A stretch of DNA of 64,000 nt from Bdellovibrionales bacterium Ga0074139 (GTDB lineage Bacteria; Bdellovibrionota; Bdellovibrionia; Bdellovibrionales; Bdellovibrionaceae): the NCBI GenBank assembly GCA_001464795.1, contig LNEB01000014.1, positions 1-64,000 on the forward strand, read 5' to 3'. The first letter of the stretch is position 1. Each line of letters starts with the position of its first letter. Both the position numbers and the translations under genes were made by a program. Positions 21,278 to 39,933 of the stretch are shown piece after piece. The notes under the pieces were generated by a model, which was not told the DNA's origin, did no database searches, and was given only the letters and a program-made list of their open reading frames with translations.

Positions 21278-21325
21278 CTGTCCGAAGTTCGGACAGACGC
21301 GGGGCAGTAACGTGCCTGGTACCCT
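21278..21325 (-). repeat. dispersed stop-codon-adjacent repeat, copy A
   Basis: On the minus strand GGGTACC, then GGCACGTTACTGCCC, then GCGTCTGTCCG and an 8-bp hairpin, CTGTCCGA with TCGGACAG. A 35-base core matches copy B (54459-54504) at all but one position and copy C (55416-55462) at all but two. It begins at the rpoN stop codon itself and reads in the same direction as rpoN. Confidence 0.85.
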
Positions 21326-22757
21326 AAAAGACTTTTTTGCGTTGGCTGGAGGGAAGAAGGCGAAGCATTTCCCGGTACTTGGCGACCGTTCGGCGGGCGA
21401 TGTCGACGTTATCTTTTTTCAGCAGTTCGGCAATTTTTTGATCTGACAATGGGCTTTTGGGATCTTCTTTGGTGATCAAATCTTTGATCATCAGTTTGAC
21501 TGATTCAGAAGCTAAAGAATCACCACCATCAGTGGCATTGATTCCAGAATTGAAGAAATATTTAAGTTCGTAAATCCCTTGAGGGCTGTGCATGTATTTG
21601 GCTGTGGTCACACGAGACACTGTGGATTCGTGCATACCGATATCACTTGCGATATCACGAAGGACCATGGGTTTTAAGTGGCCTGCGCCTTTTTCAAAAA
21701 ATTCTCGCTGGCGTTTCACGATCGCTTCGCCCACTTTGAAAATGGTGCGCTGACGTTGGTGAATAGATTTAATCAACCAAACCGCTGATTTTAATTTTTC
21801 CTGGATGTATTCGGATTCCTGCTTGTTGGCGCCTCCGCCCTTTAGCATATTTCTATAAAAGTTAGAAATTTTAAGTCGTGGAAGTCCGTCTTCGTTTAAA
21901 GACACCACGAAATCATCACCCACTTTATAAACATAAACATCAGGAGTCACATAGTGAGTGTCATTTTCATGAAAGGCTCGGCCCGGCTTGGGCTCCATCG
22001 CATAAATGATTTTACACATTTCGACGATAATACGAACATCCATGCTCATGGCTTTTGCAATAGCTTCGTAATTTCTTTTTTCTAAGTCTTTCAAATGATT
22101 TTGAATGATATTCACTAAATCTGTGGTGTCTTCTTCGATGTGACGAGCCTGAATCATCAAGCACTCTTTAAGATCTCTGGCTCCCACACCTGGTGGATCA
22201 AATTCGTGGATCAAACTTAAAGTGTCTTCTAAATCTTCAATGGGAAGGCTTTCGTCTTTAGCAATTTCTTCCAGTGATGTTTTGATATAGCCATCTTCAT
22301 CGATATAGGCCAAAAGTGCTTCAGCTGCGATCACTTCGTGCTCGGCCAAACCATTCATTTTCACTTGCCAATGCAAATGATCATGAAGCGACGGAGTCGT
22401 CGTCATGATGTTTTCATAATTCATGATCTCTTCGTTGCCTGAGGAAAAATCTTTGGGTGGTTTTTGACCCTGTTCGAAATAGGATTCCCATTCGAATTCA
22501 TCTTGTTTTCGAGGATCTTGAGTGTTGTTGTCTTGAACTTCAGCGGGGCCTTCCACTTCAGTGGCAGCTTCTTTTGTACGCTTTAAATCTTCTTCTTTAA
22601 GATCGTGGGTTTCTTCTAAGATGGGATTTTCTTCCAGCTCTGCATGGACTGCCGATTCTAATTCGAGTCTGGACATTTGCAATAACTTGATCGCCTGCTG
22701 CAATTGCGGCGTGATGACCAGGTTCTGACTCATGTTCATACTTTGTCTTAATGCCAT
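21324..22757 (-). CDS. rpoN: RNA polymerase sigma-54 factor
   Basis: Alternative sigma factor that needs AAA+ activators. Region I is the Gln/Leu-rich N-terminus (LQQAIKLLQMSRLELE); an acidic region II follows (55-115). The core-binding and HTH parts are in the middle, and the RpoN box ARRTVAKYRE sits near the C-terminus of 477 aa. It follows lptB by 21 bases, the classic lptB-rpoN order. A sigma-54-type activator is encoded at 39934-41169. Confidence 0.97.
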   Translation of the reverse strand: MALRQSMNMSQNLVITPQLQQAIKLLQMSRLELESAVHAELEENPILEETHDLKEEDLKRTKEAATEVEGPAEVQDNNTQDPRKQDEFEWESYFEQGQKPPKDFSSGNEEIMNYENIMTTTPSLHDHLHWQVKMNGLAEHEVIAAEALLAYIDEDGYIKTSLEEIAKDESLPIEDLEDTLSLIHEFDPPGVGARDLKECLMIQARHIEEDTTDLVNIIQNHLKDLEKRNYEAIAKAMSMDVRIIVEMCKIIYAMEPKPGRAFHENDTHYVTPDVYVYKVGDDFVVSLNEDGLPRLKISNFYRNMLKGGGANKQESEYIQEKLKSAVWLIKSIHQRQRTIFKVGEAIVKRQREFFEKGAGHLKPMVLRDIASDIGMHESTVSRVTTAKYMHSPQGIYELKYFFNSGINATDGGDSLASESVKLMIKDLITKEDPKSPLSDQKIAELLKKDNVDIARRTVAKYREMLRLLPSSQRKKVF

Positions 22758-22778
22758 CTTTTAAAAACAAACCCTTTC

Positions 22779-23501
22779 TTAGAGTTTAAAATTTTCACCC
22801 AAATAAAATTTCTTGGCGAGTTCGGATCCGGCGATTTCCTCAGCTTTTCCACTGACTTGGATTTCTCCGTCTTTCATTATATAAGCATAATCACAAATTC
22901 CCAAAGTCTCACGCACGTTGTGATCTGTGATCAAAACACCTAGACCTTTAGCCTTGAGTTCTCGAATGATATTTTGAATGTCAGCGACGGCGATGGGGTC
23001 GATACCTGCAAAGGGTTCATCCAGAAGTAAAAACTGAGGCTCACAACCCAGTGCTCGAGCAATTTCTACACGTCTTCTTTCGCCACCCGAAAGTGAAAAT
23101 CCAAAATTATCGCGGATGTGGGAAATGCGGAATTCGTTCAATAAGTTTTCTAGTTTTTCTGCTTTCTTAGCTCCGTCATAACCATAGGCTTCCAATGCTA
23201 CTAAAATATTATCAGCCACACTGAGTTTTCTAAAAATGCTGGGTTCTTGAGCCAGGTAACTAAGACCCACACGAGCACGTTTGTGCATAGGAAGGTTGGT
23301 AATATCCTGCCCCGATAAAGAGATGGTACCGGAGTCTGGCTGCACAAGTCCTACCACCATGTAAAATGAAGTTGTTTTGCCAGCCCCGTTAGGACCTAGA
23401 AGTCCAACAACCTGTCCGGATTCAATTTGAAATTCTGCGTCTTTAACAACTTTTCTTTTTTTGTAGGACTTTGAAATGCGTTCAATTTTTAATGTACTCA
23501 T
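22779..23501 (-). CDS. lptB: LPS export ABC ATPase LptB
   Basis: ATPase that powers LPS extraction from the inner membrane by LptFG. Walker [15 protein letters not shown], signature [15 protein letters not shown], Walker [17 protein letters not shown] and the family-typical [11 protein letters not shown] are all present in 240 aa. It overlaps the LptC/LptA gene by four bases. LptF and LptG are not in the window. Confidence 0.96.
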
Positions 23502-24451
23502 TCGATGGGCATCCCTTTAGCTTTCACATTTTCAACCTTAACTCTTTTTCCACCATCGAGGAAAGTGATTTTATCACCTACAAGTTCATCTTCACCTTGA
23601 TAAAGACGCGGCTGGCCTGAAAATGTCAACTTTTGAGTTTCAAAATCAATTTTTAAATTATCACTGGTGGCTCGGCGTTCGGCCTCGATGAGTTCTACTT
23701 TTTCACGCAGCTCAAGGGATTCAAAGGCTTTGGATTTTTCATTATAGGAAAACAAAGCAAACTCACTTTTCATTTGTCTTTCAGAATGATTAATCAACAC
23801 CTGACCGGAAAACTCTGCAGTTTGGCTTTTGACTGATAAAAGTGCGGACTGACTTTGCACAACGACCGATTCGCCAGATTCCAAAAGTTGCGTACCTTTC
23901 ACTTGATTTTGTAAATAAATTTTTCTCTCGTTGATAGGAATGGAAATTCCAACAGCCGTCATCTTAAGACTTCTGATTTTTTGTATGACAGGTCCTAAAA
24001 CTTGAATCAGTTGATCACAATAAATTTTTCGAGTAGCGGCTTCGTATTGAATATAAGGAGCTACAAATGTGTAACCGTTGGCGGTCATGATTTGCACATC
24101 ACCTTCAATACGCATATTTTTTGATTGCATATCAATATTACCAACTTTGCCTTTAACTGTGATATCTTGCATCTCTGAATTATAAAATCGTATTTCAACT
24201 TCTTTTAAATCCCAATCACTGCGGCCTTGATAACTGATGGACTCTTTTGAAAAAAGCTCCCAATCACGTTTGCCTTGTTGGCTTTCGACCAAGTGGCCGC
24301 CTTGCATTTTTTGTAAAATCTCTGGCTCTGCATTGAGTGAATTGTCAGCGACTGGATTTTGTTTTTTTTCTTCAGGATCTTTTTTGAAAGCAAAAATATA
24401 CACTTGAACGGCTATGAAAACACAAAGAAGTCCTAGCCAGATTTTTTTCAC
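23498..24451 (-). CDS. lptC: LptC with C-terminal LptA-like domain
   Basis: A 317-aa bitopic protein: membrane helix at about 4-22, then a beta-jellyroll typical of LptC (about 50-165). The second half (190-317) is again OstA/LptA-like, ending in [19 protein letters not shown] and a [12 protein letters not shown] tail, the pattern of LptA. LptC alone is near 190 aa and LptA near 180, so this looks like the two bridge components in one chain. No separate lptA follows before lptB. It could form the periplasmic LPS bridge from the inner membrane outward. The domain split is my reading, not a profile result. Confidence 0.8.
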
Positions 24452-25044
24452 TCGACAACAGGAGCAGTCTGTTCACTGTCTTTTTTTGTTACAGCAAAGT
24501 TAATTTGTCCCGCTCCGGCTGATGAGATGGTGTACATGATTTTTTTAACTGCTAAATAGTTCACATCTTTATCAGCTTGAATCGTAATTTTTTTCCAATC
24601 CAATTCTTGTGGATTTTGATCAGGTTGATTGCCAATGATGGATTGAACTCGGTTTCTAAGCTGCTGATCGTATTCCGCTTTTTTAAACTGCAAAAGGCGA
24701 ATTAATTCTTCGCGCATTTTAGGTAGTATCCAGTCCGTTGAAGCACGAACCTCTTCCATGGAAGCCACTAGAACTTTTTCGATGTACACATTTTCTTTTG
24801 AAACCGTCACAACAGCTGCTGGTTTCAATTCTTTAGTTTGCTCAGCTTGAGGAAGACTTACGTTTTCTGGGTTTACAAGGACTACAGGATTTGATGTGTA
24901 AGCTTGTAATAAAAAGATCACAAGCACAGTGAACATATCCACCATGGCAGTCAGTGATAATGTCGCTGTTACAGAGCGGCCCTTACCACGACGACGTAAA
25001 ATATTATGATAGCGGTGACGCTCTCCTGGTTTACGAATCGCCAT
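24448..25044 (-). CDS. aglS: ExbD/TolR-type proton-channel subunit, AglS-like
   Basis: A basic N-terminal tail is followed by one membrane helix with the proton-carrying Asp in TAMVDMFTVLVIFLL (about 33-47), then a periplasmic domain with a long insertion. This is the plan of TolR/ExbD/MotB-like stators. It is third in the run after a TolQ-like protein (25526) and another TolR-like protein (25044), which is the aglR-aglQ-aglS order of the Myxococcus gliding motor. It overlaps lptC by four bases. Confidence 0.8.
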   Translation of the reverse strand: MAIRKPGERHRYHNILRRRGKGRSVTATLSLTAMVDMFTVLVIFLLQAYTSNPVVLVNPENVSLPQAEQTKELKPAAVVTVSKENVYIEKVLVASMEEVRASTDWILPKMREELIRLLQFKKAEYDQQLRNRVQSIIGNQPDQNPQELDWKKITIQADKDVNYLAVKKIMYTISSAGAGQINFAVTKKDSEQTAPVVE

Positions 25045-25517
25045 TATGGATTCCCCGTTGCTAGACTGATTGTTGGAAAACCTGATTTAAGCATGATGTC
25101 CATCGCAAAAACCATTCTCTCGTAGGGAAGCTCATCACCAACCGCTAAGACTCCATCCATTTTACCTGGATAAAGTTGCTTCGCTTTCTGTAATTGAGCC
25201 ATCAAACCTACATCATCAAAAATTTCACCTTGATTAGGAAGACTAATAATTTGCTTACCAATTGTTAAAACATAACCGGCTTGTTTAACATCTACTTTCA
25301 AAACGATTTCAGAAAAGGGTGGCGGAACTGGTGGAGGAGACTGGTCATCACGCTGGGAATAAAATGAAGTTCCCATTTGAATCATATTGATTTGAACCCA
25401 CACAGCAGAGAGCAAAAGAAAAGTAATCAATACGCTCATCAAATCGATGAACGGCACGAGATTGAGCTCGACATTGACTCTTCTACCTTTTGAACCACCC
25501 GCTTCAATTTCTGCCAT
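25044..25517 (-). CDS. aglQ: ExbD/TolR-type proton-channel subunit, AglQ-like
   Basis: A 157-aa protein with a short cytoplasmic tail, one membrane helix with the conserved Asp in LVPFIDLMSVLITF (about 21-34), and a compact periplasmic TolR fold (75-157). With the preceding TolQ-like protein and the following second TolR-like protein it would form the stator. Two different ExbD subunits with one ExbB subunit is the stoichiometry of genes in Myxococcus aglRQS. It ends one base into the next gene. Confidence 0.82.
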   Translation of the reverse strand: MAEIEAGGSKGRRVNVELNLVPFIDLMSVLITFLLLSAVWVQINMIQMGTSFYSQRDDQSPPPVPPPFSEIVLKVDVKQAGYVLTIGKQIISLPNQGEIFDDVGLMAQLQKAKQLYPGKMDGVLAVGDELPYERMVFAMDIMLKSGFPTISLATGNP

Positions 25518-25525
25518 TTGATCCT

Positions 25526-26209
25526 CTAGTCTCTGATTTTGTCTCGGTTAGCGACCACTAAATTAAGAAGCGTCATGCTAGTTTCAACCACTTCATTTTC
25601 CACTTTTTGAATTCGGTGCTGAAACCAACCATAGGAAATGATGGCAACAAGGGCCACTAAAAGTCCGAAGGCAGTACAGTTCAATGCATGAGAAATACCT
25701 TCAGATAAAAGCTCTGCCTTTTTATCGTTGGCAGCACTGCTGACCGCACTAAACGAAATCACCATACCCACGATGGTTCCAAGTAATCCTGAAAGTACTG
25801 ACACGTTACCAAAAACAGCTAAGAAAGATGTGTAGCCTTCAAGCTTTGGCATCTCACGAAGCACAGCTGCATCCATGGCCACTTGCACTTCTTCATCTGG
25901 GCGTTTGTTCATGGCTTGAATGAGACCTGCTTTAACCGTGTTGGTTAAGGGTGCGGGTCTTGAATCACAAACTGAAATGGCTTGACGGATGTCACCGGCC
26001 ACAACAAGTCGGTAGATTTGATCAGTAAATTCTTTTTTATCAATGGACATGGATCTAATTTTGATAAATCTTTCCACTACGATCAAAACCGTAAGGATGG
26101 CAAAAATCAAAATGATCCACATGACGGAGCCACCATCACGAAAGGATTGAGTCAGACTGAATTGAAAGGCTGTCTCGGTTGCTGCTGCTGTTGCTGTTAC
26201 TGGATCCAC
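25526..26209 (-). CDS. aglR: MotA/TolQ/ExbB-type proton-channel subunit, AglR-like
   Basis: A 227-aa protein with three membrane helices (about 30-46, 133-155 and 175-195) and the TolQ/ExbB cytoplasmic loop, including LEGYTSFLAVFGNVSVLSGL and GTIVGMVISF. Such proteins form the pentameric channel around two ExbD helices and convert proton flow to motion. Its place directly after the GltG-like gene argues for the gliding motor rather than Tol-Pal. ATG 26209 is preceded by AGGAGG-like CCAGGAGGAAA. Confidence 0.85.
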   Translation of the reverse strand: MDPVTATAAATETAFQFSLTQSFRDGGSVMWIILIFAILTVLIVVERFIKIRSMSIDKKEFTDQIYRLVVAGDIRQAISVCDSRPAPLTNTVKAGLIQAMNKRPDEEVQVAMDAAVLREMPKLEGYTSFLAVFGNVSVLSGLLGTIVGMVISFSAVSSAANDKKAELLSEGISHALNCTAFGLLVALVAIISYGWFQHRIQKVENEVVETSMTLLNLVVANRDKIRD

Positions 26210-26224
26210 GGTTTCCTCCTGGTA

Positions 26225-28219
26225 CTAATTAATTGGTTTCAACAAAAAGGGATAAGTCACTTCACCGACCATTCCCTTAGGGGGTTCTGGAAACTGCCAA
26301 GTGGCCAGTCTCGCTCGCATACAATTTTCAATGGTCTTATTATTCAACGTTGTACTTTCAACCACGACATTTTTTGCAACTCCACGCTCGACGATGTCCC
26401 AACGTAAAGTCACTTTACCTTCAAGTTGAGATCTTCGACTGCGATCTAGTTTGTTCAGTTCACGAGTGTAACAAGCTTCGATTTGATTCAAGTTGGCTCG
26501 CACTGCACGTCTGACAGCTTCACGGTCGATGGTGCCTACGAAACTTTCCTCGGATCCCCCTGGCTCGATGGCAACAGTGGTTTTATCACCGAAGCCCTCA
26601 GAGTTTCCGTAGGTTCCCATGCCTGACCCTCTACCTTTTGTTCCGATTCCAGAAATTCCTTGAATGGCTGTGCCTTTTCCGCCAGCGCCAGTGTCTTTAA
26701 ATTTTGAGCCTAAATCATCACCGGCTCGGTTTTCACCCATACCAGTGGAACCTGTGGCTTCGCCAGCTGTTCCTAAAATATCTCCAGCTCCAGAGTAGGC
26801 TTGATCCAATTGTTTACGAACTCCACCGGATCCGAACGCACTGAAGAGTCCCACTTTTGTTACATCTTTAATTTGAGAGTTGGCATTGGCCGAATTCTTT
26901 TCACCAATTTTAACAGCTCCACCTTGCTTCACTGAGGTAAAAGTTTTGGCTTTGCTTTTTGCATTAGGATTGGGTGCTACTTCTGAAGCTCTTCCCGCTC
27001 TTTGATTGCGAGTGGCCGTTCGACTTTCAGTTTGCCCTTTTTGTTTAGCTTCCTGAGTTTTTTCAGCCGCTTGAACTTTTGTGGGTTCAGGTGGTGGCGG
27101 TGGTTTTACTTTCGTTAGCTCTTCTTCAGGTGGCTTTTGTTCAGGCACCGGAGGCACTGGAATTGGCTTATTATCAAAAACAATTTGGGCAATTCGAGTC
27201 AGATCCTCTTCCTCTTCAGGAAGTTCAGGTTGAGTTGTGGACACAGCTAAAAACATAAGCAGTGAAATGGCCAATGCAATCAGCACACTCATCAGTTCGC
27301 CGGAAGATAGCATCAACGGTGGTACAAGAGGTGCGATCGGTGACATAGGTACGAAGCGAACAACGATGCGGATGGGACTATCTTTTATTTGGATATGCAG
27401 AACTTCGTTTTGTTCCAGCTTGATTGCATTATTATTTGTTGTTGGCTGCATTCGTCCTTGAGTTAACAAGTCTTGCGTATTCAATCGACCTGAATTGGTG
27501 ACAATTTCAAGTTCTGCATTCTGTGGAATTTTTACGCGTACACCTTGAGTTAAATCTAAAAGCTTGAAACCTTTAGGCAAAGTTCCAACTGGCAATTGAA
27601 TGGAAGCACCGTGGTCCACATTAACTTGCACAATCCCTTTTTTTCGAAAAGAGAATGTTTCAATAATACGGTCTTGCCAACAAACCAAAACTTCAACGGC
27701 ACCGCCCTTATGGGGCTTGAGATAAGATTTAAGATCAGGAATTTGTGTGGCAGGTGCAAAAGTTTTTGAAGGTTTTTTTCTAGTGGAGACAATGGGTTTG
27801 GAAGGCTTAATTTGCGGTCGATGGGGAACTTGTGAAGCCTGAGGACTAGCTGCCATTTCCACTGGAACTTCTTTAGGAATAACAACCGGTATGGCCGCAA
27901 CTGTTGTCAGCTTGGCTTTGGGCACTCCAGAGAAAAAAACAATTTTGTACTGACCTAATGTGATTTCATCATTGGACTGCAACTGCTCATCAAGAACACG
28001 CTGTCCATTTTTCATGGTTCCGTACTCGGAACCTAAATCACAAATAAAATATCCCTCGGGACGCAATTCAATCATGCAATGAATCGGAGAAATTTCTGGA
28101 TCGTCTAAATCTAATTGCACATCGGCTTGATGCCCGATGACGATTTGCTCGAGGTCAAATTGTTTAACCTCTTTAAGCTGATGGCCTTTGTAGACTCTTA
28201 GAATAATTGGTGATTTCAA
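26225..28219 (-). CDS. gltG: GltG-like FHA/TonB-type gliding-motor protein
   Basis: A 664-aa inner-membrane protein. It has an N-terminal FHA domain (about 20-95, with DLGSEYGTMKNG), a beta-rich region (170-290), a membrane helix (306-327), a Pro-rich spacer (350-382, with PPPPPEP), a Gly/Ser-rich stretch (455-560) and a C-terminal TonB-like AgmX/PglI tail domain (562-664) with two cysteines (583, 633). This order is that of Myxococcus GltG, which couples the AglRQS motor to periplasmic Glt proteins. The FHA domain predicts binding to a phosphothreonine partner in the cytoplasm. It overlaps the gltF-like gene by four bases. Confidence 0.85.
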   Translation of the reverse strand: MKSPIILRVYKGHQLKEVKQFDLEQIVIGHQADVQLDLDDPEISPIHCMIELRPEGYFICDLGSEYGTMKNGQRVLDEQLQSNDEITLGQYKIVFFSGVPKAKLTTVAAIPVVIPKEVPVEMAASPQASQVPHRPQIKPSKPIVSTRKKPSKTFAPATQIPDLKSYLKPHKGGAVEVLVCWQDRIIETFSFRKKGIVQVNVDHGASIQLPVGTLPKGFKLLDLTQGVRVKIPQNAELEIVTNSGRLNTQDLLTQGRMQPTTNNNAIKLEQNEVLHIQIKDSPIRIVVRFVPMSPIAPLVPPLMLSSGELMSVLIALAISLLMFLAVSTTQPELPEEEEDLTRIAQIVFDNKPIPVPPVPEQKPPEEELTKVKPPPPPEPTKVQAAEKTQEAKQKGQTESRTATRNQRAGRASEVAPNPNAKSKAKTFTSVKQGGAVKIGEKNSANANSQIKDVTKVGLFSAFGSGGVRKQLDQAYSGAGDILGTAGEATGSTGMGENRAGDDLGSKFKDTGAGGKGTAIQGISGIGTKGRGSGMGTYGNSEGFGDKTTVAIEPGGSEESFVGTIDREAVRRAVRANLNQIEACYTRELNKLDRSRRSQLEGKVTLRWDIVERGVAKNVVVESTTLNNKTIENCMRARLATWQFPEPPKGMVGEVTYPFLLKPIN

Positions 28220-28497
28220 TTCCCACTCCGAATGCGCTGCAGGTCTTCAGTTGTTTTTCTCATTTCGGGGATAAAATTTTCTCGAAGCTTAATTAGTTTT
28301 CCATAATTAAAATTTTTCTTTTGAAATAAATAAAAGAGTTCCGGCTTTTGTGTCGAACCCTCGACAAGTTCGTCTTCAAAATTCAATGATGTTCTTCTTT
28401 CTGTAATAGCCGGACTTGGCTGTGGCTGAGACTGTGTCTGCGCCATGCCAAACGAAAAGCTGAATAATAAAAAGAACATACACAGATATTGGAGCAC
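28216..28497 (-). CDS. gltF: GltF-like small periplasmic gliding protein
   Basis: A 93-aa protein with a signal peptide (1-19, ending GMAQ) and a short helical domain with FEDELVEG and FYLFQKKNFNYGKLIKLR. The size, the signal and its place between the TPR lipoprotein and the FHA/TonB protein match GltF of the Myxococcus gliding complex. The similarity is from memory and position, not a search. GltG starts inside its stop codon. Confidence 0.65.
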   Translation of the reverse strand: MLQYLCMFFLLFSFSFGMAQTQSQPQPSPAITERRTSLNFEDELVEGSTQKPELFYLFQKKNFNYGKLIKLRENFIPEMRKTTEDLQRIRSGN

Positions 28498-28510
28498 TTT
28501 TACCTCACCT

Positions 28511-29371
28511 CTATTTTAAAACCGATTTGGCACGATTTTCCAATTCGGAAATCTTTTTTCTGAGGTCTGGTCCTGGACCGATGAACCGCATTTTGTTAAT
28601 GACCTCTAGACCTTCGGGTAGTTTATTCATATGTTCGATCAACAAGATGGCTAAATTCAAATTCACTTCTAAGTTTTGCGACTGCTGAGTGGCTGCTGTT
28701 TTCAATTGCGTATAAGCCAGTGGATAAATTCCCAGAGCTGTTAAAACCACTCCATAATTGGATAAAGTTTTCCAATCACGCTGACCTTTATCCACAGCAA
28801 TTTCATATGCCACTTGAGCTTTGCGGTAGTCTTTTCGTTTTAAATACAAGGAACCTACGTTGGCAGCTGCGATGGCATTGAAAGGATCAATTTTCAAAGC
28901 CTGGCGGTAAAGCCGAGTCGCCTCATCATCTTCCTTTAAAGTTTGCATAACAAAACCCAAGTTAGAATAAAGTAAAGAGACTTCAGGCTCTGTGGAAATG
29001 GCCTTATTCAATAAAGTTTTAGCTGTATCGAACTGTCCTTTTTTGAAATAAAACAAGGCCAGCGCATTTAATGCAGAAATATTATTCGGTGAACGAATCA
29101 AAAGTTCCCTTGCATAGATTGCAATGTTTCTATCATCTTGTTTTTGAATGGCTTCTTGAAGCTGTAGCATCAGCTTGTCAGCTGTTGAAGTTTGTTTTTC
29201 CTCTGCGACTGGGGGCAAATTCTCCATTTTGCTTTGCGTTTGCGGTATCATCTCGACCAAGCCTTGATCACGAGGTGTCGCTTTTAAATCTGCTTTTGTA
29301 GCAGAACTTTTTTGTGAGCTAGAGCAACCAACAAGAAATAAAATTACAACGGGTGCTAAAATTAACTTCAT
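28511..29371 (-). CDS. gltE: GltE-like TPR lipoprotein
   Basis: Lipoprotein signal with lipobox FLVGC (Cys16), a short linker, then about five TPR units (75-270; for example NALALFYFKKGQFDTAKTLL and AAANVGSLYLKRKDYRKA). The start ATG 29371 overlaps the gltD stop as ATGA; the longer frame from 29383 would hide the signal peptide. In Myxococcus GltE (AglT) is the outer-membrane TPR lipoprotein of the gliding machine. The 286-aa length fits. Confidence 0.8.
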   Translation of the reverse strand: MKLILAPVVILFLVGCSSSQKSSATKADLKATPRDQGLVEMIPQTQSKMENLPPVAEEKQTSTADKLMLQLQEAIQKQDDRNIAIYARELLIRSPNNISALNALALFYFKKGQFDTAKTLLNKAISTEPEVSLLYSNLGFVMQTLKEDDEATRLYRQALKIDPFNAIAAANVGSLYLKRKDYRKAQVAYEIAVDKGQRDWKTLSNYGVVLTALGIYPLAYTQLKTAATQQSQNLEVNLNLAILLIEHMNKLPEGLEVINKMRFIGPGPDLRKKISELENRAKSVLK

Positions 29372-32300
29372 GGAACACTCCACTTCACCAGACGCGATTC
29401 GAATGATCTTTGATCGTTATTGTAGTACTCCAAAGGTTGAAGGCGACTCATGAAATTAAAAGCCAATTCATATTCGGAATTGTAGGCTTCAAGTTCTTGT
29501 GCTCTTTCAACAGCAAGCTTCATACTTTCAATAGCTTTTTTACTAAATGGATCGGCTAATTTCTTAATTTCAGTTTTATAAAGTTCTGTTTCTTGTGCAT
29601 TAAGTCCCTTTGGTAAAGGGGCTTGAAGAATAGATTCTGCCATATGGTGGTTACTGTCCCCAAGAAAGTAAAGGCTGGCCACAATGGTTTTAGAACTGTT
29701 CAGCTTTACAATTTCATTCAGCTCTTTATTGATTTGATTTAAAGCTGAAATCTTTTTTTGCACAGCTTGGCTTTGTGCCGCTGAGTCTTTTGGAAGTTTA
29801 ATATTTTTATAGTCTGAAATTTGAGTTTTCAGTTCATTGATCTTAAACTCGGAAACATACTCAGCAGCCGTTGAGTTTTTTGTCCTACGATAAAGTGAGG
29901 CAATTCGAGACTCGTAGTTTTTTGCTTCATCACTATTTTTTCTATGAAGCTGACTGAGGTGAAACATGACCTGTGCAAGCCTACTATCTTCCACACCACC
30001 GATGGCAAGATAGCGTTCATAGTTTTCAATGGCGATCGCCCGTCTATTCAGTTTTCTTGCTACTTCAGCTATTAGATAATGAGCTTCTTTTTTATCACTA
30101 TTACGCTTCGTTAAATTAAGAAATTCAGAGTAATTTTGATAAGCTTCAGATAAACGACCCATTCCATCAGCCATTAAAGCCACGTTGTAATGATAGCTGG
30201 CGTTGATGGCGTCGTTGGGACTGGCTTTGATCGCTAGTTTATAATAGCGAATGGATTCATCAAACAGTGAAGCATTCTGAAAAATTTTAGCTAAAAACCT
30301 GTATACGGAAGGTGATAATGATTTACCTTTGTCAGTGGGGCTTTCCACCACTTTTTGATAAAGGGGTATGGATCGGTTCAAATTACCTGATTTTTCGTAA
30401 TTAACAGCCGCATTGAACTGTGCGGTCACGGCCAATTCTGATTTTGGATTTTGAATGGCAAAAGCCTCGAACTGAACAGCACTTTCTTGAATTTTACCCT
30501 GACTTTCCAAATCTTGGGCTTTTTTGAAACTCGCTTTTTCTAAAATATTTCGGATTTCTCCGCCGGCCTTTGAATCTGATATCCCTGGTACTAGTAGAAG
30601 CTCTTGTCCTGTTTTTTCTAAACCGATGTAGTCTTTTCTTAAGTTAAAAATATCCAAAAGAAGATTGGCTGAAAATTCAGAATACTTTGTTTTGGGGTGT
30701 TGCTGAACCACGTTTTTAAATCCGTCGTTCGCCTTATCAAATTGATTGTGCTGATAATACAGTCTCGCCACACGAAATTTAAGTTCCGCTGCTCTTTCCC
30801 CGTTCGGAAATTTTTCAATGTACCAACCAGCTGCTTTGATGAAACTTTCGGAATTAGCTTCAAAAGCAATTGGAGTGGTTTTATCACCCACTCGCTTCAA
30901 TAATTCTTGATCCGTAGGCAAAGATTTTTCTGCTGCGTAAATAATATTGGAAGCCGCTTTCGAATAAAAGGGACTTTTCGGAGCATTTTCCACCACCCAC
31001 TGGTACTGACTGGTGGCATCTTCAAACTTCTTCATGTCATAAAGAAGCTCACCATAATAAAAGTGCATGTCAGCGATTTGCGCAGAGCTTGAGAATTCTT
31101 GAATATAAATCTTGTAACCCTCCACAGCAGAAGCCTGTGAAAAAGGAGCTCTGGAGTTTTGTGCTGTTTGGTGCTGTTGAAGTATATAATTTTTTAATGT
31201 TGTTTCTCGCAAGCGATCAGATTTTTGGATTAAATCTTTGTTTGATTGATTGGCTGCATACCAAGCGCTATTAACGCCGTAACCTTTAACCCAACCGTAA
31301 AGCTCGTCCCGAAACCGGCTAGAGTTCTTTGCATAGAAATAGTTCTGTACAATTTGGTACTGATACTCAAAGGCCTGAGGACTGTTAGGATTTTTTTCGA
31401 TCAGGTACTTAAAGCTTGTTCGAGCCGCATCGCTATTACCTTTATCCACATAGTAGTAAGCTAACTTCTCAATGTAGTTTGAAATATCATTTTTTTGCGT
31501 AATTTCTGAAAAATACTCTGGTGCTTCTTCGGCTTTTCTTTCTGCTGCAAAGAAAACCACTAAGTCACGAAGGGCTTCATTTTCTAGTCGTTCTTTATTC
31601 ACAATTCTTTTCGAAGCGAGCTCTTCACCCTGACCGCTTTGACTGTCACGAATAATGGATTCTAAATATTTCAATGCTTGCTTATGCTGACCTAAGCGAA
31701 ACAAACACCAAGCTCCTTTGTAAACAGAGTAAGTGTTCAAACGGTGATTCTTATTTTTAATTAACGGTACATAGCGATTGTAAGCTAAAGTCCACTTTTC
31801 ATTTTCAAAATAATACTCGGCTAGCGAGAACTGAGCTTCCCCGACAAATGAACTTCGTGGATATGATTTAATAAGACGTTCATAAAACTGGGCCCCTTTT
31901 TCAAGCTCACCCAACTCAAAGTTATTAAATCCCAAAAAAAACAACGCTTGAGACACTTTTTCATCTCGTGGAAAGTCCTTCATGAACCACTCATACAATT
32001 GAATCGCTTTTCGATTGAGTTCACGAGCTGCACGCACATCTAAGACCGGTCTTTTTTTAGTTTTACCTTCATTAAAAAGTTTCACTTGCTTGTCAAACTC
32101 ATCCTGTTTTCTGGAATCAATCAAAACTGATTTTTCCACATACAGTTCAGCAAGCCTTAGCCAAAGTTCGCCTCTGTTTTCACTGCTTTTGAACTTTTGA
32201 GTCAGCTTAAATAACTCATCGATTTGGCGATTCAGAATATTTTCATACTCTGCTAGATCACCAGTCGCTGCAGTTCTTAAGATTTCACTGGATTTTGGAG

Positions 32301-32517
32301 GCTTTACATCTTCTAAATTATATTTACTGACAGCTTTAAAACCTAAATCTTTATTACCACTTGGAATTGCACTTTTATTTTTATCACCAGAGCCCTTAAT
32401 CTGTCCTCCGCGGCTTTGATCTTGAACCTGTGATAAAAATTCACCCACTGTTTTTTTAGGAGCGGCGGAAGAAATAAGTGATAATAGTAAAAGTGGGGTG
32501 ATGATTTTAGTATTCAT
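29368..32517 (-). CDS. gltD: GltD-like large periplasmic TPR protein
   Basis: A 1049-aa protein with a signal peptide (1-19), a low-complexity linker (25-60), and tandem TPR/SEL-like repeats along almost the whole length; regular pairs such as FLGFNNFELGELEKGAQFYE and VARLYYQHNQFDKANDGFKN recur. No enzyme motif is visible. Large TPR solenoids in the periplasm are the hallmark of GltD (AgmU), which bridges the motor and outer-membrane components. It is 3 bases after the gltC-like gene and overlaps gltE. Confidence 0.82.
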   Translation of the reverse strand: MNTKIITPLLLLSLISSAAPKKTVGEFLSQVQDQSRGGQIKGSGDKNKSAIPSGNKDLGFKAVSKYNLEDVKPPKSSEILRTAATGDLAEYENILNRQIDELFKLTQKFKSSENRGELWLRLAELYVEKSVLIDSRKQDEFDKQVKLFNEGKTKKRPVLDVRAARELNRKAIQLYEWFMKDFPRDEKVSQALFFLGFNNFELGELEKGAQFYERLIKSYPRSSFVGEAQFSLAEYYFENEKWTLAYNRYVPLIKNKNHRLNTYSVYKGAWCLFRLGQHKQALKYLESIIRDSQSGQGEELASKRIVNKERLENEALRDLVVFFAAERKAEEAPEYFSEITQKNDISNYIEKLAYYYVDKGNSDAARTSFKYLIEKNPNSPQAFEYQYQIVQNYFYAKNSSRFRDELYGWVKGYGVNSAWYAANQSNKDLIQKSDRLRETTLKNYILQQHQTAQNSRAPFSQASAVEGYKIYIQEFSSSAQIADMHFYYGELLYDMKKFEDATSQYQWVVENAPKSPFYSKAASNIIYAAEKSLPTDQELLKRVGDKTTPIAFEANSESFIKAAGWYIEKFPNGERAAELKFRVARLYYQHNQFDKANDGFKNVVQQHPKTKYSEFSANLLLDIFNLRKDYIGLEKTGQELLLVPGISDSKAGGEIRNILEKASFKKAQDLESQGKIQESAVQFEAFAIQNPKSELAVTAQFNAAVNYEKSGNLNRSIPLYQKVVESPTDKGKSLSPSVYRFLAKIFQNASLFDESIRYYKLAIKASPNDAINASYHYNVALMADGMGRLSEAYQNYSEFLNLTKRNSDKKEAHYLIAEVARKLNRRAIAIENYERYLAIGGVEDSRLAQVMFHLSQLHRKNSDEAKNYESRIASLYRRTKNSTAAEYVSEFKINELKTQISDYKNIKLPKDSAAQSQAVQKKISALNQINKELNEIVKLNSSKTIVASLYFLGDSNHHMAESILQAPLPKGLNAQETELYKTEIKKLADPFSKKAIESMKLAVERAQELEAYNSEYELAFNFMSRLQPLEYYNNDQRSFESRLVKWSVP

Positions 32518-32520
32518 AAA

Positions 32521-34116
32521 CTACTCACAGCTCGACTTTCCAAGAAACTGATAATTACCAATTTCGTCTAACCAGTACTCACCGTTAAATGGGTAATACT
32601 GATAACCATTTTGCACATAGAAATCCCTTGAACGATTGTCATCAACTCGAGCTTCAGGAAGATCTGTACCTTGGATTCTTTTCTTTACTGTTTCTTTCTG
32701 TGCACTGATCATTTCATACCTGGCAAAGGAAACTTGCTCATAGTAATCTTTTAATTCTGTACGCATATTGGTCATTTGCACTTTAGCCACTTCACCAATT
32801 GTTATTTTGGTATTTTGCGAACGAGTGTTTAAAACTTTCAGAGCATAGCGACCAAGACCCGTAGATTTCAGTGAGGGATTAGATTCGATGGTTTTTCTTT
32901 CTATGTCGATTCGTTTTAAATAATTGAGAGACCTTCTTACACTGCCCAGGTTTGATATTTTTTCAGCCACCATGAAAGGAATTTTTAAAGCTGAACGCTG
33001 CTCCATAGGAAGTTTTTGTAAGCTCTGCCATTTTTCGATCTCAGAATAATACGAAAGTGGATTTGCATAATTTTTTAAATAAATGGAAACCTGAGAGCGA
33101 ACAGGTCCGTAGGTTTTTTCAAAAAGGGAGAGAACTTTTTCCATCTCATCATACTTGCAAATGTACAAATAGACGATGGAGCGCAAAATCAAGGATTCAG
33201 GATTGTAGTCATCTTCATAGAAAGGAGCATGAATCGAGTGAAATTGTGAAAGAACAGATCTAAATCTCGCTCCGCGAAGCATGGCCCACGTTTGTTCATT
33301 CAAAGCTTCGTGCCATAAAAAATGATCTCTGGGAACTTCTTGATAAGCAGCGACTGCAGCGTCCCAGTCTTTTCTTTGATACTGAGCTCTGGCAATACCT
33401 AGAAGAGCTGCCACTCGGTTGGTATCTGTTACACCTGCTCTTCTTCTTGCAGAAGCCATGGTTTGAAATACTTGAATGGCCTCTTGAGTTCTATTCATTT
33501 CTAAATAGGCCAACCCCTTTTGAAATAAAGCTTGTCCGTAATATCGACTGCCAATTCCGATGGATGAAAAAGCTTGCACAGCTTCTTGGTAGCGCTTGTT
33601 ACGCATTTTAATTTCACCAATACGAAACTGAACCATATCACGGTTGGATTCAGGAACATCATTCACATCCACCCGAGACATGGCGTAGTTAATTAAAGTA
33701 TCATCACCTAACTCATCAGCAACTGTGGCCAGTTTTTCAATCGCAAGCTTTGTGTAGCGTGAATTTTGTCCACGAATCACATCGACGAATTGAAAAGCTG
33801 CAATCTGATTAAGATTCAGCTCTGTTAACATTAAACCTAAAATATATTTAATTTGTGCTTTATCATTACGAAGCTCAGGTCTTCTAGCTAAACTAAATAA
33901 CTGAATGGCTGCCGCTTGGTACTGTCCTGACTGTGACAATTGTAAAGCTTGGGACAGCTGGCGCCTTAAAGCATTATCAGCAGCAGGTGCCACTTTTTTT
34001 GCAACAGGCGCTTTTTTACTGACCGTGGGCTTCACTTTTTTATTAGAGGCTTTGCGGTTTCCCTGTGAAAAAGTCAGCGGTGAAATAAGTAATAGAAGAA
34101 TAAAAAGTTTTTTCAT
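32521..34116 (-). CDS. gltC: GltC-like periplasmic TPR protein
   Basis: A 531-aa protein with a signal peptide (1-18), a basic low-complexity linker rich in Lys, Pro and Ala (19-45), and TPR repeats (50-300) such as QALFQKGLAYLEMNRTQEAI. The C-terminal half is helical with many Arg and ends near a cysteine. In Myxococcus GltC is a soluble TPR protein acting with the barrels GltA and GltB, which are encoded just upstream here. It overlaps the barrel gene by four bases. Confidence 0.75.
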   Translation of the reverse strand: MKKLFILLLLISPLTFSQGNRKASNKKVKPTVSKKAPVAKKVAPAADNALRRQLSQALQLSQSGQYQAAAIQLFSLARRPELRNDKAQIKYILGLMLTELNLNQIAAFQFVDVIRGQNSRYTKLAIEKLATVADELGDDTLINYAMSRVDVNDVPESNRDMVQFRIGEIKMRNKRYQEAVQAFSSIGIGSRYYGQALFQKGLAYLEMNRTQEAIQVFQTMASARRRAGVTDTNRVAALLGIARAQYQRKDWDAAVAAYQEVPRDHFLWHEALNEQTWAMLRGARFRSVLSQFHSIHAPFYEDDYNPESLILRSIVYLYICKYDEMEKVLSLFEKTYGPVRSQVSIYLKNYANPLSYYSEIEKWQSLQKLPMEQRSALKIPFMVAEKISNLGSVRRSLNYLKRIDIERKTIESNPSLKSTGLGRYALKVLNTRSQNTKITIGEVAKVQMTNMRTELKDYYEQVSFARYEMISAQKETVKKRIQGTDLPEARVDDNRSRDFYVQNGYQYYPFNGEYWLDEIGNYQFLGKSSCE

Positions 34117-34928
34117 CGGTAGCTAGCCTCCGGAAAGAAGAAACTAAATCCTGCAGATAAAAACACGTTGTTGTAGGCACCTGTTGACCTGGCATCTAAA
34201 TCTTTAGCTTCAAAAAAGTTCCAACTGAGATCCCAGCGAAAGGCCATTTTTTTGCTCATGGAAAAAATTTGCCCAACACCCAAATGAACAGTGGGTTGCA
34301 CGTCTCCCGTTTGAATCTCTGTGCCACCAAAACCAGCTGAAAAATAGGTGTCGTAATAAAGAATTTGCTCATCAAGCCAGGTCATCTTTCCATATAAAGG
34401 TGTCCAGTTGATATCTACATTGTAATAGCTTTTTGAAAATACGATGTTCTTTGCAACCGTATTGTTTTCTTTATCAAGTTCCCTAAGAGCTTGAGATTTA
34501 TCAGTGGACAAAAATGTATAGCCTGCTTCGATTCCCCATGCTTCCCTGAAGTTGTAAGCGGCCCGTAAAGTTCCACCGTAGACATTGAACCATGGATCAT
34601 TGAGAGTTAAAGTCGGTGCTAAAAAAAACTGAACACGTTCGGTGCGTGGCAAAAATCTTCTTTGTACAATGCTGACCTGTTGAAATTCTGTCAGGCGATT
34701 GAGATCTTCAACATTTCTGACTTCTTGTAGATTATTTTGTGTGGGTGGAAGTGTGGATCTTCCCGTTTCTGACGGCGTTTCTTTATCTTCTGGAACGGGC
34801 GATGATCTTAGATCTCGGTCAAGCTCCATTTCAATCAGATTCAATTCCTCCACATCACTATCCTGGGCCGATACAAAACTTGATGAAGTAAGAATTGAAA
34901 TAATAAGAATCAAAATTTTAAAATTCAC
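34113..34928 (-). CDS. outer-membrane beta-barrel of the Glt complex (GltA/GltB-like), second
   Basis: A 271-aa protein: signal peptide (1-22), an acidic disordered stretch (24-75), then alternating hydrophobic strands that end in the Phe-rich FLSAGFSFFFPE, a barrel-type C-terminus. The overall plan equals the barrel proteins that precede the TPR genes in Myxococcus gltA-gltB-gltC. Which of GltA or GltB it corresponds to cannot be settled by eye. No relation to citrate synthase gltA. Confidence 0.75.
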   Translation of the reverse strand: MNFKILILIISILTSSSFVSAQDSDVEELNLIEMELDRDLRSSPVPEDKETPSETGRSTLPPTQNNLQEVRNVEDLNRLTEFQQVSIVQRRFLPRTERVQFFLAPTLTLNDPWFNVYGGTLRAAYNFREAWGIEAGYTFLSTDKSQALRELDKENNTVAKNIVFSKSYYNVDINWTPLYGKMTWLDEQILYYDTYFSAGFGGTEIQTGDVQPTVHLGVGQIFSMSKKMAFRWDLSWNFFEAKDLDARSTGAYNNVFLSAGFSFFFPEASYR

Positions 34929-34937
34929 TTCTTGCTC

Positions 34938-35648
34938 CTAAAATAAGTAATTGAATCCAACGTCCAAAGTGTTCGTATAATGAATCCGGTCTTTAAAAAC
35001 TCCGTAACCTGGATCAGCAGATCCTTCTCGCAGAGCTCCTTCTTTAAAGGGTGTAGGAGCTTGATGAATCAATAACCTTAAATCTGTGCGTAAACTTAAG
35101 CTGGAATTGAAATAAAACTTGTAGCCCACACCAGCCGATAAGCCTGGGTAGGTTTTATTATTTTCATACTGTGAAAAACCGATTCCCAACAAGCCTTGCA
35201 AATGTGTATTGATGGACTTATTTTTTGAAATACTCATTTTTCCATAAAATAATTTTTTATTGTAATCCAGGTAAACTGAATACAAGGGTTTTGGAGCACG
35301 GTTAAAATCCAGATCAAACCCAGGTCCTGATAGCTGCTTCGCGTATTCAGACAGCCCTGTGCTGTGAGCGTAGAAAAGTCCACCCCAAGCTGTGTTTTCA
35401 TCTGTGTGATAATATCCCGAAACGCCAAGCCTGCTTGTATCAAAAATGGGCTCTGACATCAGCCACCCATATTGAAGTCCCATTTCAAATTTTTTGTTGG
35501 TGACGACATTTCGCATTCTCACCATTCCAGGTTTTTTGAAAACAGGAAGCACTGTTTCTTTTGCAAGCTCATCATCAGGGAGCTCGATATTTGCCCCGTA
35601 ACAGGCCAAGCTTGCAGCCATCATAATTAAGAAAAGAGATTTCACCAT
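34938..35648 (-). CDS. outer-membrane beta-barrel of the Glt complex (GltA/GltB-like), first
   Basis: About 236 aa. The signal peptide is MVKSLFLIMMAASLACYG, then many amphipathic strands (for example KFEMGLQYGWLM, LSAGVGYKFYF) and a C-terminal strand LDVGFNYLF ending in Phe, as in outer-membrane barrels. ATG 35648 or the next codon (GTG) is the start; GAGAGA lies just upstream. A frame reaching 35687 lacks a ribosome site. It is the first gene of the gliding block, after a 117-base gap that holds a promoter-like pair and inverted repeats. Confidence 0.73.
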   Translation of the reverse strand: MVKSLFLIMMAASLACYGANIELPDDELAKETVLPVFKKPGMVRMRNVVTNKKFEMGLQYGWLMSEPIFDTSRLGVSGYYHTDENTAWGGLFYAHSTGLSEYAKQLSGPGFDLDFNRAPKPLYSVYLDYNKKLFYGKMSISKNKSINTHLQGLLGIGFSQYENNKTYPGLSAGVGYKFYFNSSLSLRTDLRLLIHQAPTPFKEGALREGSADPGYGVFKDRIHYTNTLDVGFNYLF

Positions 35649-35678
35649 TCTCTCATTGTGAGAACAGGAACCAGTTAA

Positions 35679-35696: not shown

Positions 35697-35702
35697 TTAG
35701 GA

Positions 35703-35730: not shown

Positions 35731-35732
35731 TT

Positions 35733-35753: not shown

Positions 35754-35765
35754 CTGGACTAGCAG

Positions 35766-36746
35766 TTACCTAACTTGAGCAGTGAAAAGATCATGAAAGT
35801 TAATAATCCCCACTGGCTTTTTAGGTTGAGATGATGACGAATCTAAAACGAATAACGATTGAATGCGCATTTGCTCCATTAAAAACAAAGCTCTTTCTGC
35901 TAATTCGTTTTGATCAATTGTTTTAGGACTACGATTCATTAAGTCTGTTGCTGAACCATTCAAAGGATCTGCTGATTTTTCTAAACGTCTACGAATATCA
36001 CCATCAGTAATAATTCCGATGAGCTCTTGTTGATCGTTGATCACTCCTGCTGTTCCTCGAACATCTTTGTGAGTCATAATTCCTACAATTTGTTTAATTG
36101 ATGTTTGCTCAGTAACCAAAGGAAGCGCATCACCCTTATGCATGATATCGGCAATTCGCACTAGTTTTGCACCCAAGCTTCCACCCGGATGAACATCTGC
36201 AAAGTCTTCGGGGCGAAAGCCCTTTTGAACAAGCACACACATGGCCAAAGCATCCCCCAACGCAAGAGTCGCAGTGCTACTGGCTGTAGGAGCTAAATTA
36301 TGAGGGCAGGCTTCTTTATTAACAGAAATATCCAAAGTTATTGCGGCTGCTTTTGACAAAGTGGATTCTAATTTTCCTGTCATCGCAATCAGTGGAATAT
36401 TTTTTCGAGTAATAAAATTAAGTACAGTCAGAAGCTCTCGACTTTCTCCGCCGTAGGAAATGCCAATAACTAGATCATTGGATGAAATAATTCCCAAATC
36501 GCCGTGAGCACTTTCGGCAGGATGCAAGAAAACAGCAGCTGTTCCAGTGGAGGAAAATGTACTGGCAAGCTTTCTAGCAATGTGCCCCGATTTACCAATT
36601 CCTGTAACAATCAATTTGCCTTGGGTTTTAGAGATCAGCTGAACAGCCTTAAAAAAAGTTTCATTGATTCTACTTTTCAAATTTAAAATGGCGTCTGATT
36701 CAATTTGTAAAACTTCAAAGGCTTGGTTTTTAATACTTTCACTCAT
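35766..36746 (-). CDS. kdsD: arabinose-5-phosphate isomerase
   Basis: Converts ribulose-5-phosphate to arabinose-5-phosphate, first step to Kdo of LPS. An N-terminal SIS domain (about 30-185, with [19 protein letters not shown] and [12 protein letters not shown]) is followed by two CBS domains (205-325). The 326-aa length is typical for KdsD/KpsF. It overlaps pyrG by four bases. kdsC and kdsA are not adjacent; kdsB is two genes upstream. Confidence 0.95.
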
Positions 36747-38455
36747 GTAAAGAATCTTTCTTCCTGATTAAGATTTTCTGCTTTTCTTTCAATTTTTCCA
36801 GATTCCACTGCTGCTTTACGACTTAAGGAGGCTTTGATAAACTGACTGAACAATGGATGTGGAGCCAAGGGCTTAGATTGAAATTCAGGATGAAACTGAA
36901 CACCAATAAACCATGGGTGATCCGGTAGTTCTAAAATTTCGACTAAATGTCTTTCTTTATTTTTTCCAGAGGCCATCATGCCATTTTTTTCAAAAAGATC
37001 TAAAAAGCGATTATTAAATTCATAGCGATGTCTGTGGCGCTCAAAAATTTGTAAAGTTTTGTAAACGGCATGGGCCCTAGAGCCTTTTTGCAACTGACAA
37101 GAATAAGACCCCAATCTCATGGTCCCACCCTTTTTCTCAATGCTTCGTTGTTCTTCCATGAAATCAATCACAAAACTACTTCTGGAATCTTTAGCAACCA
37201 CAAACTCACGGCTGGTGGCATTTTTAATACCACAAACATTTCTAGCAAATTCAATGGCTGCTAGTTGCATTCCAAAACAAATTCCAAAAAACGGAATCTG
37301 TTTTTCTCTGGCCATACGGATCGCCAGCATTTTTCCTTCCACACCTCGAGCACCAAAACCACCGGGAACCAAAATTCCGTGGACTCCCATCAGCGCCTGA
37401 CCAATGGATTTTTCTTTTAATTTTTCAGAATCCACATAGACGATTTCCACTTTACAATTTTGCTGAAGACCACCGTGAACAAGTGACTCGTGTAAAGATT
37501 TATAAGATTCTTTGAGATCCACGTATTTGCCAACAATTCCAATTCTTACAGTTTTTGCAGAGGAATTAAGAATTTTAACAATATTTTGCCACCCCTTGAG
37601 GTTGGACTTAGAAGGCTTCAAATTTAAAAATTTAACTAAATTAAGATCTAGTTTTTCACGGTGAAGACTGAGAGGAACTTCGTAAATGGTGGATGAATCT
37701 TGAGCTGCCACCACACGGTCAGCAGAGACAGAGCAAAAAAGAGCGATTTTTTTCTTTAAGGACTCATCCATTTTTTTTTCACTTCGACACACTAAAAAAT
37801 CCGCCTGCAAACCAATCTCTCGAAGCTCTTTGACGGAATGCTGAGTGGGCTTTGATTTTAATTCACCAGCCGCAGCGATGTAGGGTACATAGGTCACATG
37901 CACCAGCGCGCTGTTGTTAGGTCCTACTTCGTTGCGCATTTGTCTGATGGCTTCTAAGAAGGGTTGGCCTTCGATGTCACCAACAGTGCCGCCAATTTCA
38001 ACAATAATAATTTCACAACCTTGAGCTCGATCATAAATTCTATTTTTAATTTCATCAGTGATATGGGGAATCACTTGTACAGTTCCACCTAGGTAATCAC
38101 CGTTTCGCTCACGTGATATAACTGTATCGTAAACCTGTCCAGCCGATACAGAATTGGACCTTTTCATCACAGCAGAGGTAAATCGTTCGTAGTGTCCCAA
38201 ATCCAGATCTGTTTCAGCACCGTCATCGGTCACGTAAACTTCTCCGTGCTGGAAAGGTGACATTGTTCCTGGATCCACATTGAGGTAAGGATCACATTTC
38301 ATAATGTCCACTTTAAAACCTTGTGATTCTAGTAAAGCACCCAGGCTAGCAGCTGTGAGTCCCTTACCTATGGAACTTACCACTCCTCCAGTGACAAAAA
38401 TGAATTTTTGCTGAAGTGGTTTCTTTGTTGATTTTTTTGTTGAAATCTTTTTCAC
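36743..38455 (-). CDS. pyrG: CTP synthase
   Basis: Makes CTP from UTP, ATP and glutamine. The synthetase domain carries [20 protein letters not shown] at the N-terminus and the Mg site; the glutaminase domain has the nucleophile in GICFGMQ and the C-terminal HPE in VQFHPEFQS. At 570 aa it is about 25 longer than E. coli PyrG, through a basic N-terminal tail and a C-terminal extension. It lies between kdsB and kdsD, which is sensible because KdsB uses CTP. Confidence 0.97.
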
Positions 38456-39186
38456 AATAATTTCTCCACTTTTTGAGCATCCTCAGGAGTGTCCACACCT
38501 TGTATGGATCCTTCCACTGAAATGACTTGAATATGAAATCCAGCCTGTAAAGCTCGCAGCTGCTCTAAACTTTCTGATACTTCAAGCGAGGACGCAGGCA
38601 AGGAACAAAACTTTTTTAATGAGTGAAACCGAAAGGCATAAAGACCGATGTGTTTAAGACTTGTGGGCGGAACTTTAGGATCACGAGCCCTGGAGTGCGG
38701 AATAGGATAGCGACTGAAATAAAGAGCTTTTCCGAATTGATCAGTCACAACTTTAACAGCATTTAAATTATCAATTTCTTCCCAGCTTATGGGATGTGCT
38801 AAGGTGGCCATTTCCATGGAAGGATTGGATTTTAAAGTCTCAATGAGTTTTTCAATCCACTGAGATGGAATCATGGGCTCATCACCTTGAACATTAACAA
38901 TGATATCTTGATCATCAATATCTGAAAAATTTTTAAGAGCTTGATAAACTCGGTCCGTACCAGAAACCAAAGCTGAATCAGTCATTTGAAAATCAGTTTT
39001 TAATTTTTTACAAAGATCGGCGATGGATTGATCATCTGTTGCGACGAGGATCTGATCGAAATGTTTGACTGTTTTTACTTTTTCAATCACCCAGGCCAGA
39101 AGAGCTTGACCTTTAATGACATACAAAGGTTTTCCAGGAAAACGCGTTGAACCTATTCTTGCTGGAATAACGATTCGAACTTTCAT
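38452..39186 (-). CDS. kdsB: CMP-Kdo synthetase
   Basis: Activates Kdo with CTP for lipid A assembly. The nucleotide-binding start [15 protein letters not shown] is characteristic, followed by [11 protein letters not shown] and the product-site region with [10 protein letters not shown]. It is 244 aa, standard. It overlaps engB and pyrG by four bases each, so the four genes form one translationally coupled set. Confidence 0.97.
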
Positions 39187-39764
39187 TTTGCAGTCTCAAC
39201 CCATTTTTTATAAAGATACTCTTCGATTTCTTCCACTCCTTGAGCTTTCAAATTCGAAATGGGAAAAAGAGCAGAAATTCCTGTGAGCTTTGATATTCGC
39301 ATGGACTTGGTTTTCACTTCTGACTTGGAAATCTTGTCTGTTTTAGTCAAGGCCACTGCGATGGGTACACCTGCTTTTTCAGTGAACATTTTAAGAAGTT
39401 CTTCCTCGTCTGTCCATTCACGGCGAATATCCATAACTAAAATAAGACCTTTTAGTTGCACTCTTCTTTTGATGTAAACTTCGACCATTTCTTCCCAGGT
39501 GCTTTGCTCGGAACCTGATCTTTTTGCGAAACCATAACCAGGCATATCGACTAAAATATATTTAAGGCGAACGTTAAAAAAACTGAGAAGCCGGGTTTTT
39601 CCCGGCGTATTACTGACGTGAGCAATCTTGGCCCCCGAGATTTGATTGATCAGAGATGATTTACCAGCGTTGGATCTTCCGGCAAAAGCAATTTCAGGCA
39701 GGTCCGTTTGGGGGTAATCTTCCGGATAGACGGCACTTTTAATATAATCGATTTTAGCTGGCAT
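39183..39764 (-). CDS. engB: ribosome biogenesis GTPase EngB/YsxC
   Basis: Small GTPase needed for 50S assembly. G1 GRSNAGKSSL, G2 PGKTR, G3 DMPGYGFAKR and G4 TKTDK are present. I take ATG 39764 (193 aa), giving the family-like start; a TTG-initiated extension to 39791 is unlikely. It is the first gene of the 38-kb minus-strand run. The 169 bases between this start and the divergent activator at 39934 hold no other gene; 39866-39887 shows an imperfect palindrome. Confidence 0.94.
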   Translation of the reverse strand: MPAKIDYIKSAVYPEDYPQTDLPEIAFAGRSNAGKSSLINQISGAKIAHVSNTPGKTRLLSFFNVRLKYILVDMPGYGFAKRSGSEQSTWEEMVEVYIKRRVQLKGLILVMDIRREWTDEEELLKMFTEKAGVPIAVALTKTDKISKSEVKTKSMRISKLTGISALFPISNLKAQGVEEIEEYLYKKWVETAK

Positions 39765-39933
39765 AACCAAACTTAGCAGAGGACGGCACAAGTCTCAATT
39801 CTTAGAACAGAGACCCATAGCATCAATTAGGTCCAATGTTTTTTAAATCATTTCAAGGGCTTAGGTCCGTCCGAAACTCGGCCCGGATGTTGTAATAAGA
39901 GTCCCTTAACAACAACCAATCAAGGGGACTTAA

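Follow-up and report, generated by a model that had tools for sequence, protein, structure and literature searches.

Does one block of genes in a Bdellovibrionales genome encode a complete and self-sufficient gliding machine? The window analysed here, 64,000 nt of Bdellovibrionales bacterium Ga0074139 (LNEB01000014.1, positions 1-64,000; GCA_001464795.1), contains a candidate. According to the original prediction, it holds a complete Glt/Agl set in a single uninterrupted block at 24448-35648, which might be ancestral and sufficient for a minimal machine, with surface gliding and prey exit as its uses. Ten minus-strand genes indeed lie head to tail from 35648 down to 24448 in the order omp1-omp2-gltC-gltD-gltE-gltF-gltG-aglR-aglQ-aglS. 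They are spaced by -4 to +15 bases if gltE starts at the ATG at 29371, and gene set, lengths, order, strand and spacing are all as originally described. The block is contiguous too, but the run does not stop at 24448: aglS and lptC share 4 bases, and lptC-lptA is likely to belong to the same transcript. The whole same-strand run (20241-39791, minus) reads engB-kdsB-pyrG-kdsD-glt/agl-lptCA-lptB-rpoN-hpf. The genes are listed below, with percentages that refer to the matching locus of strain HD100.

35766..39791, minus strand: kdsD, pyrG, kdsB and engB (context, upstream); 117-base gap between the kdsD side and omp1
34938..35648, minus strand: omp1, 8-strand outer-membrane barrel at the GltB position; 236 aa from ATG 35648; TIGR04565 8.4e-26
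34113..34928, minus strand: omp2, 8-strand outer-membrane barrel at the GltA position; 271 aa; TIGR04565 3.6e-33
32521..34116, minus strand: gltC, periplasmic TPR protein; 531 aa; NF033756 gliding_GltC 1.5e-48 over residues 41-525; 54% to the HD100 locus
29368..32517, minus strand: gltD-like large TPR protein; 1049 aa; TPR matches; 52% to the HD100 locus
28511..29371, minus strand: gltE-like TPR lipoprotein; lipobox FLVGC; NF033758 GltE 1.2e-10; 40% to the HD100 locus
28216..28497, minus strand: gltF, small exported protein; 93 aa; NF033764 CglF/GltF 1e-10; 79% to the HD100 locus
26225..28219, minus strand: gltG; 664 aa; NF033760 GltG 5.8e-69, NF033768 9e-28, FHA 1.3e-14
25526..26209, minus strand: aglR, TolQ/ExbB/MotA-type stator subunit; 227 aa; PF01618 (MotA_ExbB) 1.2e-25
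25044..25517, minus strand: aglQ, TolR/ExbD-type; 157 aa; PF02472 (ExbD) 4.2e-13; helix Asp in PFIDLM
24448..25044, minus strand: aglS, TolR/ExbD-type; 198 aa; PF02472 (ExbD) 2.6e-15; helix Asp in AMVDMF; ortholog of HD100 aglS
23498..24451, minus strand: lptC-lptA fusion (context); one ORF with PF06835 LptC 6.7e-15 and PF03968 LptA 1.2e-10
21324..23501, minus strand: lptB and rpoN (context), extending the same-strand run

The comparison with Myxococcus proteins was made through NCBIfam models. GltC, GltF and GltG are recognized by their own profiles, and it had been allowed that the TPR and barrel proteins might match unrelated families; the searches returned Glt profiles. Scores for GltC, GltG and CglF/GltF all fall short of the NCBI-curated equivalog cut-offs, which is expected in a lineage so far from Myxococcus. 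The names gltD and gltE rest on position, length and architecture, because no protein of the block matched a GltD-specific profile in NCBIfam or Pfam (TPR matches only) and the match of the gltE product to the GltE model (NF033758, 41 bits) is outscored by generic TPR models. GltA and GltB, as names for omp2 and omp1, come from gene order only. The mechanical ORF of omp1 begins at TTG 35687, as compared to the ATG at 35648. Its AlphaFold2 model (pLDDT 81.5) has a signal helix and eight strands and resembles OmpA, OmpX and OmpW. The omp2 model also shows a signal helix and eight strands (pLDDT 74.2 overall, above 85 in most strands) and comes closest to small OmpA/OmpW-type barrels in structure comparison. 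Searches against solved structures returned TolQ/ExbB for AglR, only FHA domains for GltG and nothing for GltC. GltG is laid out as a cytoplasmic FHA domain, one membrane helix, a Pro-rich stalk and a TonB-like C-terminal domain.

A matching block, with identities of 40-79%, lies at 777-788 kb in genome G073, which we take to be B. bacteriovorus HD100. Glt-like stators occur there at 398, 787, 1403 and 2282 kb, and their order matches the four published HD100 clusters Bd0412-0420, Bd0828-0838, Bd1473-1483 and Bd2368-2377 (PMC2797640; Lambert 2010), so that the counterpart of the window block is the second of them. Judged by sequence, the block is the ortholog of Bd0828-Bd0838, the "expanded core" Glt/Agl machine of Bdellovibrionia. 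Luciano et al. 2011 described Bd0828-0838 as one cluster of AglRQS and Glt homologs without GltH, I, J and K, saw in it the best candidate for the gliding apparatus of Bdellovibrio, and derived the separate Myxococcus loci from an ancestral linked core (PMC3169522). The central claim of the original prediction, a motor and glt genes in a single locus, is therefore already published; its remark that GltH, I, J and K equivalents are not adjacent is right and equally dates from 2011 for the orthologous locus. For Bdellovibrio-type bacteria the ten-gene block is ordinary, and it is the details of its neighbourhood that are less known.

How old is this arrangement? Among 291 genomes of the phylum, a GltC match is present in every same-class genome listed (G231 matches only weakly). 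Order and strand of all ten genes are identical in 27/27 named class loci that contig ends leave untruncated, which excludes chance, and nothing in ten further, truncated class loci contradicts the order. Loci from further families of the class follow the same pattern; in some of them gltE is too divergent for a match. Of the glt-agl clusters, only the Bd0828-type block is retained class-wide, so it is the single locus best suited to asking whether an ancestral envelope machine serves prey attachment or gliding. The glt genes are clustered in the sister classes sampled as well, but there no stator gene follows gltG: a stator gene lies some 9-13 kb from the glt genes in G102 and G131, and on other contigs or far off in the other genomes examined. 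Contiguity of motor and glt genes is thus a feature of the class. That the contiguous block is the ancestral form is plausible and agrees with the core that Luciano et al. infer (PMC3169522); it stays unproven because the sister classes keep the motor apart. One public record titled "Streptomyces griseus isolate HRS-HS12-bin-158" (L103) contains the Bdellovibrionales block; its label is evidently wrong.

The stator itself looks active, since in the alignment AglR keeps both TolQ threonines (motifs GLLGT and TAxGL) and the helix Asp of AglQ and AglS aligns with the pore Asp of the genome's own TolR. In the AglR tree, the window protein, the gene of the HD100 Bd0828 locus and twelve class orthologs group at 100/99 (14 rows), apart from paralogs, TolQ and ExbB. 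TolA and TonB bind their motor through a His in the membrane helix, and the TolA of this genome carries it (SLGAHIF). The GltG membrane helix (residues about 300-330) contained no His, whether in the window, in HD100 or at other loci of the class. Throughout the class, it opens with a nearly invariant Glu within an SSxEL-like pattern.

What is the machine for? On balance we favour, with fair though not high confidence, a proton-driven envelope machine of the Bd0828-0838 type, which holds the cell to prey or surface, moves it there and takes part in prey attachment. Protons passing through AglR with AglQ and AglS would move GltG, which has its FHA domain in the cytoplasm and would reach across the periplasm; in Myxococcus, AglR binds GltG. 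Force would then pass from GltG to GltD, GltF and GltE/GltC and on to the two small outer-membrane barrels. Traction on a solid surface or a prey cell would be provided in trans, by MIDAS/VWA adhesins encoded elsewhere. The most likely use would be gripping and moving over prey and surfaces, including prey attachment, and we infer that this uncultured organism glides.

Published phenotypes bear on this reading. A transposon mutant in Bd0838 (AglS) shows defects in attachment, killing and rounding; it remains viable when grown host-independently and is defective in predation (PMC6561027). Bd2368-2377 is the cluster of the exit phase, Bd0411-0421 that of the early bdelloplast (PMC12546842). Attachment or movement on prey or surfaces is therefore favoured over exit, and the proposed link to prey exit fits the paralogous cluster Bd2368-2377 instead. 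Three points count against the preferred reading. Firstly, the surface-induced aglQ of HD100 is bd1480 (PMC9140294), and both it and the exit-phase genes lie in other clusters. Secondly, Myxococcus depends on GltH, I, J and K, which are absent or unmatched here. Thirdly, lptC lies so close downstream, its start no more than about 110 bases beyond aglS in HD100, that the aglS insertion could be polar on lptC/lptB. Future aglS insertions carry the same risk of disturbing these genes. Although candidate clusters have been listed since 2010-2011, a 2026 review (PMC13104615) still describes the Bdellovibrio gliding motor as unidentified.

The surroundings of the block suggest another explanation, which we consider unlikely: the envelope machine would primarily serve something other than motility, such as Nfs-like surface transport or upkeep of outer membrane and LPS, and would later have been shared with predation. 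The block occurs in every class family sampled, small genomes included. Among loci with enough flank, it is set between kdsD (upstream in 25/33) and lptC-lptB-rpoN, with lptC(A) downstream on the same strand in 34/40. The Nfs paralog, moreover, serves sporulation, and the core is also found in non-gliders (PMC3169522). Against this explanation stands the aglS mutant, which lives without a host and fails in predation. The distance from aglS to lptC, within about 120 bases in Bdellovibrionaceae, is mostly 0.8-3.6 kb in other families, and no lptC lies nearby in 6/40 loci, so the linkage to kds and lpt genes may be mere history. Our search of the literature on gliding together with lptC and kdsD, incomplete in its coverage, yielded no description of this neighbourhood. 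LptC and LptA are fused in one ORF in the window, and almost every class locus with a nearby lptC has a matching ORF of comparable length.

An LPS connection can also be combined with the preferred machine, in a joint reading that we regard as quite improbable. It assumes that LPS export and the machine are functionally linked, which would explain the class-wide insertion between kdsD and lptCA-lptB-rpoN, and coupling of GltG to the motor through the conserved Glu in place of His. The link may consist in co-regulation, or the machine may act on LPS or newly assembled outer membrane. The rpoN linkage suggested sigma-54 promoters, yet their pattern gave 49 matches in comparison with 54.5 expected by chance, i.e. 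no signal; sigma-70-like sites were fewer than in shuffles and uninformative. An FHA-domain sigma-54 activator gene (39934-41169, plus strand) is divergent from engB, with rpoN at the far end of the run, and several other loci likewise have an FHA-type match upstream of engB.

That the block alone is a sufficient minimal machine for surface gliding and prey exit, as originally proposed, seems to us very improbable. Its ten genes do correspond to the set AglRQS plus GltA-G that Luciano et al. speculatively named as a minimal glider; the same authors, however, state that the core genes alone are insufficient in Myxococcus (PMC3169522). The exit phase in HD100 belongs, as mentioned, to a different cluster. 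The genome also contains two further Glt-like clusters, on contigs C1 and C8. The C1 cluster is the ortholog of Bd1473-1483 (identity 40-69%). The C8 cluster (L011 1522-11055) is divergent, and none of the four HD100 clusters is clearly orthologous to it; it comprises a GltG C-terminus, a weak GltC, two ExbD-type genes, TolQ, a barrel and a 985-aa TPR protein. The polarity GTPase MglA is encoded on C15 (phmmer 1e-83 to Myxococcus MglA structures). A whole-genome profile search for GltJ matched nothing beyond the C-terminal domain that it shares with three GltG-like proteins.

The block has no adhesin gene either. MIDAS/VWA adhesin relatives are encoded at several sites of the genome, and two of these adjoin the C1 and C8 clusters. 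With a profile built from these relatives, a MIDAS adhesin gene was detected next to 5/5 paralogous clusters examined, three in HD100 and two here; no MIDAS/VWA (CglB-like) gene was found anywhere in the 64 kb of the window, near the HD100 ortholog or at 52 class loci. The genes beside the paralogs lie at L011 12875-14026, L012 10936-12129, L146 1-1035, L147 11262-12362 and L148 67-1107. The window-type block probably works with adhesins encoded elsewhere. With no adhesin gene nearby, and with two more clusters and MglA in the same genome, the description of the set as complete is not supported.

It is next to impossible that the stator is an ordinary Tol-Pal or TonB energiser beside unrelated TPR and barrel genes: its subunits do belong to the TolQ/ExbB and TolR/ExbD superfamilies, but the GltC, GltF and GltG profile matches are specific, there are two ExbD-type genes, AglR falls away from TolQ and ExbB in the tree, and the stator stays far under the TolQ/TolR equivalog cut-offs (87 bits for AglR against 221 for tolQ), which the tolQ gene on C15 passes with 237. 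That gene adjoins TolA and TolB in a canonical, stand-alone Tol-Pal locus, where TolQ and TolB exceed the curated cut-offs; the window stator as the genome's only Tol-Pal motor was thereby rejected. A flagellar MotAB pair is encoded on C14.

Taken together, the block can be placed among the known systems as follows. With Tol-Pal and Ton it shares the stator superfamily, the same catalytic residues and a TonB-like transducer, whereas the two ExbD-type genes and a GltG with an FHA domain and no helix His set it apart. Myxococcus Nfs (G3) is, by description, likewise a single-region set of glt paralogs without GltI, J and K, but its motor is encoded elsewhere and its function is spore-coat assembly. 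The Glt/Agl system of Myxococcus xanthus has homologs of GltC, GltF, GltG and AglRQS as well as GltA/B/D/E-like proteins, and the gene orders inside its G1 and G2 groups match the window block; it is spread over three separate loci (G1, G2, M1) and requires GltH, I, J and K, while the window has one locus without them. Bd0828-0838 of HD100 differs in several extra genes between kdsD and omp1, and in belonging to a genome with four expanded clusters as compared to three here. It shares with the window block the same ten components in the same order, the lack of GltH/I/J/K and an lptC-A downstream on the same strand.
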